This document shows, in pieces, positions 17,698 through 21,281 of a stretch of 64,000 bases of DNA. Under the pieces are notes generated by a model. That model had not been told where the DNA came from. It searched no databases and saw only the letters and a list, made by a program, of their open reading frames with translations. Numbering within the stretch: position 1 is the first letter of the stretch; each line of letters starts with the position of its first letter. The DNA is taken from positions 1-64,000 of the forward strand of contig DURQ01000041.1 of assembly GCA_012840725.1 (NCBI GenBank). The letters run 5' to 3'. The DNA comes from Bacillota bacterium (GTDB taxonomy: Bacteria > Bacillota > Limnochordia > Darwinibacteriales > Darwinibacteriaceae). Position numbers and translations under genes: made by a program.

Positions 17698-19316
17698 TCA
17701 CCAGGTGAACTGCACACCCACACCCCTCCCGATCTGCCAGACTGCAGAAAGCTGGGACGTGAGATTCCAGGCGAGGCTGTGCGCAAGCTCCCATTTGTTC
17801 GGACCCACTTCGTAGGTGAAGCGGGCGGCTGCGGAGAGCCGTCCCAGAGTCAGCTCATAGACGCCGCCGACCAGGATGGCTGACTCCTCCGGGGCCACCT
17901 TGGCTCCGGCGCCCAACCAGATGCGGGATAAGAAGGTCGAGTACAGATCCCACTCCACACCCAGCGAAGCGCTGTGCAGACCGGCCATCTCAAGCCGGCT
18001 CCTCAACCGGTATGCGGGAGAAAGCTCAAGGTCCACCACGGGCCCGTTGGGAGAACTGAAGGCGGCAACCTTGTTCTGATCCCTCGCGGGGACGAAGTCG
18101 AAGTCGACGGGAGCATACTCGGAGTAGAGATCATGCAGCCACATGGTCTCCATGCCCCGCAGCTGCTCAAAAGCGGGCCCTTTGAGCAGGATGGGGACCA
18201 TGAGATCGGTTGTGGTCAAACCCGTGTGATTGGCCTTATTTGAAAGCGGCGTTTTCGGCAGCTTCGGCGGGGTGATACTGATCACAAAATCTCCAACGTA
18301 GGGATTCTGGAGATAGCTGTAGACATTGGGGGGAACGGCCGGGAACCGGAGATCAGCCGTTAACTCCAGCCACTCTTCTCTGCTCAATGCCTCCCCGCGG
18401 TAGCCCGCGGCGTAGTACCCGAAGGGATCGCTGCCGGTGAAAGTGTACCTGAACAGCCCATCGTGCTCTGTGAAGTACGCCAGGCCTCCTCCATGGCAGG
18501 CCACTACCGTTTCGCCTTCCCGGTAGAAGACGAAGTCGATCCCGGCGTCAACCAGCTCCCTCGCCTTTTGGCTGCGGTCCACTTCAGCAGATATGTAGAT
18601 GTTGGGGTAAGTGCAGAACTTGAGGTCAGGTCCAAAAACCTCTCGCGCGGCGGCGTTGTAATCAACGAGCCCCGATTCCCCAAAAGACATGCCGTGGTCG
18701 GCATAGAGGATTATGTTCACATCTTCCAGCTCGTCCAGGGGCAGGAAACGCCCGATAGCCCTGTCAAAGTTGTACAGGGAAGCAAGGTAGGCCCTGGGGC
18801 CAACGACATGTCCGAGGAGATCGGTGCAGAACCAGAGGACCTCGGCGTAGCCGAACTTCTCTAAAACACGCGGCACATTGAGCAGCGAGAGGGATGCCAG
18901 GTGGTGCAGCCCGGGGACGCCGTAGGTCCAGAAGCCCAGCGACTCTCTGGGCATATGGCTCAACATCTCGCGGAGGATCACGGGCTGGTGATGATCTCTT
19001 CCGTTTCCGGATCGACCAAGCCCCAGCTGACGGTGCGTCCCTGATCATTGCCAATGCCCATTTTCAGGCGGGGGTAGATCACTTCAGTGCCGCCGGGATA
19101 AAGGGTCAACCCGTGTTTGATGTGGATGCCTCCCGCAAACAGCCGTTCGATATTTGGCAGGTTGCCGGCCTCCAGTTCGCGGAAGAAGACCGGAGAGCTG
19201 ACAGCATCAAGATGGAAGATAAGATAGGGACTGGACGCGCCGACACCGGCAGAAACTGCGAGCAGTACTACCAACAAACCAAGCAGGATCTGTTTGTGCA
19301 AATGAATCTCCTCCAA
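17698..19316 (-). pseudogene. Type I phosphodiesterase/alkaline phosphatase superfamily protein with beta-barrel-like tail, frameshifted
   Basis: Two frames together make one protein. 19316-18978 encodes a signal peptide (LLGLLVVLLAVSAGVGA) and the start of the phosphatase fold (YLIFHLDAVSSPVFF). 18981-17698 continues it with metal-site blocks such as IILYADHGMSFGE. Frame 1 stops exactly where frame 2 begins (GTGA at 18981-18978); one extra base near 18982 would fuse them. The last 110 or so residues alternate hydrophobic and polar residues with aromatic girdles and end in FTW, like an outer-membrane beta-barrel. It may be a sequencing error, a true mutation or a programmed shift. The enzyme's substrate is unknown. 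Confidence 0.7.
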
Positions 19317-20619: not shown

Positions 20620-21281
20620 CTAGAAGAGGTTGTTCAAGAAGTGCGCGATAACTCCCCCCAGCACCGAACGGGAGCGGTGCGCGGCATAGCCAAAACCGAG
20701 GCTGACCAGGAAGATGGACAGAGCCCAACCTGCAGGTTGGGTCAGGTTCTCCCACAGCACTCCCATGAAGAACCAGCCCGGAATGTGGAGAAGGACAAAG
20801 AGCAGCGAAGTCAGGATGTTCGCCTTCCAGAAGGGACACTGCCGGCTCAGGTTCGCCTGAACCGCGCCGCGCATCAGAAACTCCTCAAGGTGGGTGCGAT
20901 GACGATCACATTCAGGAGCGGGAAGTCCACCTTGGTGGGCAGAACGGGCCTGCCCTGCAGGTAGTTGGGGATGATCCCGGTGAGGGCGATGAGAAGACCG
21001 ATGCCGCCGCCCCAGGCCAGGGCAGCCTTCCAGTTGGCCAGGCCCAATACCTCTTGCAGGCTGCGCCCAGAACGCCCAATCAGCCACAAAGCGGGCACGA
21101 TCCAGACGATCAGCTTTGCCGCCGTCCAGTAGGCAAAGCTTCCGCCTCCGGCCGTGAGCCAGCTCCAGCGCTGGTCCAAGTTAATCTTCACGAGCCAGGC
21201 GGCGGTCCAGGCTGCGATGATGACGGCAAATGCAAGGTAAGTGAGGGCTGCGGTTCTCTGTTTAAGGGTTGGTTTTTCCAT
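20620..21281 (-). pseudogene. CPBP family intramembrane protease (CAAX protease/Abi), frameshifted
   Basis: The first frame (21281-20874) encodes a membrane protein start MEKPTLKQRTAALTYLAFAV with about three helices and stops just after VIVIAPTLRSF. The second frame carries on with EEFLMRGAVQ, FVLLHIPGWF and AHFLNNLF, the three CPBP catalytic motifs (EExxxR, FxxxH, HxxxN/B). Adding one base near 20888 would read APTLEEFLMRG in one frame. The intact protein would be about 220 residues. Either the gene is inactive or the base is a sequence error; a second frameshift lies 1.9 kb away. Confidence 0.8.

Follow-up and report, generated by a model that had tools for sequence, protein, structure and literature searches.

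A predicted NPP-type phosphodiesterase with a putative ten-stranded outer-membrane barrel at its C-terminus in a diderm Bacillota bacterium

Results

The gene and its frame break

The gene lies at positions 17698-19316, on the reverse strand, of the window (the whole stretch of 64,000 nucleotides of DNA that was analysed). Across these 1619 nt there are two overlapping open reading frames and not one open frame:

18978..19316, reverse strand: ORF A, 112 aa, with a predicted signal peptide and the N-terminal part of the AlkP/NPP domain
19301, reverse strand: likely start of ORF A, a TTG behind GGAGGAG
17698..18981, reverse strand: ORF B, 427 aa, with the remaining AlkP/NPP domain and the predicted C-terminal barrel
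18978..18981, reverse strand: frame change, a 4-nt overlap of ORF A and ORF B, which are in different frames

Both the start and the signal peptide of ORF A were judged by eye, and the window copy, frame-broken as it is, may not be expressed as drawn. Two relatives from the same genus (L003, with a frame of 588 aa, and L004, with one of 547 aa) read through the ORF A/ORF B junction in single intact frames. The junction is also intact in the copy of genome G004, from the same genus (L005/L024, a frame of 611 aa), in which a different C-terminus replaces the last strands. Unrelated sequence at L024:4159-4482 stands there in place of the last barrel strands, and the missing barrel motifs were found in none of the other forward frames of L024.

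Approximately 1.3 kb upstream of the phosphodiesterase gene, a gene for a CAAX-protease-like (Rce1-like, PF02517) membrane protein (20620-21281, reverse strand) is split over two overlapping frames. Since this nearby gene is broken too, and in a draft genome (103 contigs, 84% complete), an assembly error is likely, and it is the simplest cause of the frame break near position 18981. It is possible, if somewhat doubtful, that the break is a real mutation in the organism, which would make the window copy a pseudogene or a gene that has been switched off. The frame change itself and the altered C-terminus of the G004 copy would fit with this, but the catalytic and barrel features are kept on either side of the break, the split CAAX-protease-like gene points to assembly errors, and by eye there is no slippery run at the junction, for which reason a programmed frameshift was also rejected.

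The catalytic domain

From its sequence and modelled fold, the protein is assigned to the NPP branch of the alkaline phosphatase superfamily, and phosphodiesterase activity is predicted. The features on which this assignment rests (the PF01663 profile, the fold match and invariant residues) are the following:

18099..19229 (approximate limits), reverse strand: AlkP/NPP catalytic domain
19206-19208 and 19086-19088, reverse strand: Asp and Thr of the catalytic domain
18820-18822, 18808-18810, 18697-18699, 18694-18696 and 18226-18228, reverse strand: Asp, His, Asp, His and His of the catalytic domain

We take these seven positions to be the Thr nucleophile and the Asp/His metal ligands, as in the NPP branch. 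All seven are found across ORF A and ORF B of the window, and in the alignment they are invariant where covered (17 of 17 rows for two of them, 19 of 19 for the other five). At E <= 0.1, the profile PF01663 (type I phosphodiesterase/nucleotide pyrophosphatase) finds all family members but one (18 of 19); the score of the intact relative L022 is 32.9 bits, for a cut-off of 23, and that of the broken ORF B alone is 18.2 bits, under the cut-off. The NCBIfam profiles gave weak AlkP-superfamily matches only.

An AlphaFold2 model was obtained for L022 (534 aa, 19 sequences, pLDDT 88.6, pTM 0.87). Its residues 23-402 superpose on ENPP6 (5egh) with Z 24.9 and rmsd 3.3 over 310 residues, and residues 22-402 on the Xanthomonas NPP (2gsn) with Z 23.2-23.7. 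Many NPP entries lie within about 2 Z units of each other, and therefore the substrate is not readable from the fold match.

Structure of the C-terminal tail

The catalytic domain is followed by a C-terminal tail of approximately 125 residues, for which the models give these features:

17701..18072, reverse strand: predicted ten-stranded outer-membrane-type beta-barrel (AlphaFold2, superposition)
18052-18072, 18013-18045, 17983-18006, 17938-17973 and 17896-17928, reverse strand: barrel strands 1 to 5 (AlphaFold2 model)
17845-17880, 17806-17838, 17764-17796, 17734-17751 and 17701-17724, reverse strand: barrel strands 6 to 10 (AlphaFold2 model)
17701..17724, reverse strand: last strand, GVGVQFTW, beta-signal-like, with Gly at -5, Phe at -2 and Trp at the end

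The tail of the window, modelled alone with AlphaFold2 (137 aa, 19 sequences), forms ten antiparallel strands (pLDDT 94.8, pTM 0.82), and the full-length model of L022 likewise has ten strands in its tail. The initial annotation, which had proposed structure prediction of the tail as a check, had counted about six strands and had left room for oligomerisation or for another beta fold, such as a soluble sandwich. Six proved too few: both models show ten strands, a full barrel, so that oligomerisation is not needed and a six-stranded partial barrel that would depend on it was discarded.

A Foldseek search with the tail model returned membrane barrels in nearly all of its best rows, with a best E-value of only 1.4e-3. 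Using VIA-align, the tail superposes on the omptin Pla with Z 18.4 (rmsd 1.6 A, 128 residues), on OpcA with Z 16.0 (rmsd 1.9 A, 126 residues), on OmpT with Z 13.2 and on a designed ten-stranded barrel with Z 12.4. The best soluble barrel was a nitrobindin domain (3ia8, Z 10.3), with OssO at Z 9.8, and EstA (3kvn) gave a weak match (Z 8.1). Thus the closest solved structures are outer-membrane barrels, and the fold search gives no support to the soluble sandwich. Judged by superposition on closed barrels, the modelled tail is probably a closed, even-stranded antiparallel meander, much like a ten-stranded outer-membrane barrel reduced to the part that spans the membrane, with no long outer loops. 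At the sequence level, the tail has no meaningful match among PDB sequences, it has no family in Pfam, and the Pfam matches at E <= 1 of 19 tails contained nothing meaningful, with neither the omptin family nor an autotransporter profile among them.

Sequence patterns in the tail

Alignments A2-A4 were drawn from 22 loci; L024, with its altered tail, and L040, L042 and L043, which run into contig ends, were left out. L031, whose tail is cut by a contig end, is in the alignments but was excluded from the counts of C-termini, and L065, a duplicate of L038, was counted once.

The alternating strands ending in FTW that had been noticed after the AlkP domain are borne out by the hydrophobic/polar alternation, which is 0.50 over the strands of the model, against 0.19 (sd 0.04) in within-strand shuffles, of which 0 of 2000 reached that value; the strand ends are taken from the model, and hence the test is partly dependent on it. 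The same measure gives 0.27 for the strands of the AlkP domain. On the hydrophobic face, the fraction of Trp plus Tyr from one edge to the other is 0.21, 0.14, 0.04, 0.07 and 0.20, a double girdle, and aliphatic residues are most frequent at mid-strand (0.68), where Trp and Tyr are rare (0.04). The two strand faces hardly differ in mean conservation (entropy 2.29 and 2.21). The 22 most conserved positions of the tail comprise 9 in the polar face, 5 in the hydrophobic one and 8 that belong to no strand. The polar face, with its conserved charged residues, probably points inward, a direction that we infer from the sequence pattern.

The turns of the two sides vary to different extents. On the side where the termini lie, the four turns show a length variation of 0 residues each (19, 19, 19 and 18 covering sequences), whereas the five turns on the opposite side vary by 10, 9, 8, 5 and 1 residues.

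The C-terminal residue is Phe, Trp or Tyr in 26 of 27 tails, and Gly is found at -5 also in 26 of 27; the divergent ones are L068, which ends in Leu, and L071, without Gly at -5. The published beta-signal motif has Gly at -5 and a polar residue at -7 (PMC10945584, seen in part). Its Gly, -2 and 0 positions fit in 23 of the 27 tails and the whole motif in 13, and the last strand of the window carries Gly at -7, where the motif has the polar residue.

A tail forming a soluble ten-stranded ligand-binding barrel, of the calycin or nitrobindin kind, would leave the protein free in the periplasm or outside the cell. Such folds are also ten-stranded meanders, and the nitrobindin domain and OssO are among the structural matches. 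However, Pla, OpcA and OmpT all score above them, the hydrophobic face carries a double Trp/Tyr girdle, the C-terminal end is beta-signal-like, and the tail co-occurs with Omp85-bearing genomes (see below), so that we regard a soluble barrel as very improbable.

Distribution among genomes

The protein is carried by 16 of 60 relatives, the own genome of the window being counted, and the tail by 16 of 150 relatives. In 398 genomes drawn from the phylum, the tail was found in 10, all of them among the 102 with Omp85. If the own genome is set aside, 9 of 9 tail genomes have Omp85, compared to 101 of 397 genomes (hypergeometric probability 3e-6); counting only five other families, the probability of this association is approximately 1e-3. 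In a set of 24 tail genomes, Omp85 is present in 23, compared to the 102 of 398 in the phylum, and the tail genome with no Omp85 match (G016) is a fragmented draft.

The relatives are mostly Bacillota, Clostridiales or Firmicutes, with one from Limnochordia and one from Halanaerobiaceae, and two loci from Balneolaceae have the same architecture of enzyme plus tail. Every complete protein that was read has both parts, except for the altered C-terminus of L005/L024, and no free-standing tail was seen among them (a 209-aa fragment of G335:C288 and a second match in G335 were left out of this reading). Across 19 loci and the window we found no widely conserved gene neighbourhood, with at most 4 loci sharing flanking genes. 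One relative, L067 from G360, has a twin-arginine-like signal (SRRKFLIK) at its N-terminus, which suggests that this protein is exported in folded form.

The host envelope

The initial annotation had supposed that the host Bacillota has an outer membrane and had proposed a search of the genome for BamA/Omp85, LptD and TamB. A single 19-kb stretch of the own genome encodes BamA (Omp85, E 3e-57) with POTRA domains, together with OmpH, proteins of the LptA, LptC and LptF/G types, LpxB, an OstA_2 protein and FlgH of the flagellar L-ring. The host has an LPS-type outer-membrane gene cluster, and the supposition is supported. The search succeeded for BamA only: LptD (PF04453) and TamB (PF04357) gave no match in the own genome, which is 84% complete. 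At the place expected for LptD in the Lpt cluster there is a 712-aa OstA_2 protein (L044:5762-7900) with no match to PF04453. Between the OmpH and LptF/G genes lies a 201-aa protein (L044:9022-9627) with no Pfam match that ends in FKLAF and is a possible further small barrel of the outer membrane. Outer membranes have already been published for the class Limnochordia (PMC11456536, seen in part), and for this reason one is expected, and not new, in this host.

Discussion

Proposed mechanism and orientation

We consider it likely, from the models and the sequence patterns, that the gene encodes an exported NPP-type phosphodiesterase or phosphatase with a built-in outer-membrane barrel as its anchor. 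This agrees with the initial proposal of a secreted enzyme that carries its own barrel-like anchor, now with a ten-stranded barrel and with BamA in the host; the structural evidence is all predicted. The fold, the alternation, the girdle, the asymmetry of the loops, the catalytic residues and the set of outer-membrane genes are computed results; insertion by BAM, the inward face, the periplasmic orientation, the activity and the substrate are what we infer beyond them, as follows. The signal peptide, recognised by eye, would export the chain, and BAM would recognise the tail by its last strand and insert it into the outer membrane. There the tail would fold into a closed ten-stranded barrel, its hydrophobic side chains turned to the lipid and its interior filled by a charged network of conserved residues (Arg, Asp, Arg, Trp, Glu). 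A linker of approximately 8 residues would keep the enzyme on the periplasmic side of the outer membrane, where it might hydrolyse lipids, glycolipids or solutes at their phosphodiester or phosphomonoester bonds.

The termini and short turns of outer-membrane proteins lie on the periplasmic side. The enzyme is predicted to be periplasmic because the termini of the barrel and the turns of fixed length share one side, and it is probably not displayed on the surface.

An autotransporter-like arrangement would also place the barrel in the outer membrane and would bring the N-terminal enzyme to the cell surface, in the manner of EstA. The order of parts is the same (a signal peptide, by eye, an N-terminal enzyme and a C-terminal barrel), and the tail has a structural match to EstA, at Z 8.1. 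A classical (type Va) autotransporter, however, has a twelve-stranded barrel and a helix that precedes the first strand and passes through the pore. The models show ten strands and not twelve, residues 397-410 of the L022 model are coil and not helix, and no autotransporter profile was found. Three points make autotransporter-like display less likely: the models predict no pore helix, the linker is short, and the barrel interior is probably filled, with conserved charged residues on the putative inner face. We hold such display to be rather improbable.

Going further than the periplasmic anchoring favoured above, we propose tentatively that these tails make up a new family of ten-stranded barrels, natural and minimal in size (approximately 125 residues; several families of diderm Bacillota plus Balneolaceae), which might serve purely to anchor an NPP-type enzyme periplasmically, where it would edit the phosphodiester headgroups of lipids or glycolipids in the outer membrane. 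If true, a natural ten-stranded barrel of this size would serve well as a model in work on barrel folding and design. The outer membrane of diderm Bacillota is central to the debate on the origin of one-membrane bacteria, and the gene marks a putative outer-membrane enzyme activity that is open to direct assay.

Comparison with known systems

NPP enzymes, outer-membrane barrels of ten strands and enzymes carried on barrels are all of known kinds, but the tail family was found neither in Pfam nor among PDB sequences, and in the portions of the open-access PubMed Central literature consulted there was no description of an outer-membrane barrel joined to an enzyme of the AlkP superfamily. OmpM, an outer-membrane barrel of diderm Firmicutes with a periplasmic tether, is described as tether and nutrient channel, and not as an enzyme (PMC10628300, seen in part).

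With the NPP/ENPP family (ENPP6, Xanthomonas NPP) the protein shares the fold of the catalytic domain and the seven catalytic and metal positions, but these structures match the catalytic domain only (residues 18-402 of the L022 model), and here the C-terminal barrel comes after it. With the omptins (Pla, OmpT) and OpcA it shares the ten-stranded meander (1.6-2.0 A over 126-132 residues), but the tail has very short loops, serves a separate enzyme domain, and, in the 19 tails searched, has no match to the omptin sequence profile. EstA likewise has its outer-membrane barrel at the C-terminal end, after an enzyme domain; its enzyme fold is different and its barrel is twelve-stranded with a pore helix, in contrast to the ten strands and no pore helix in our models. 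Most known enzymes on outer-membrane barrels come from Proteobacteria, and most are surface-displayed esterases or proteases; here a different enzyme fold is predicted on a very small ten-stranded barrel in a diderm Bacillota.
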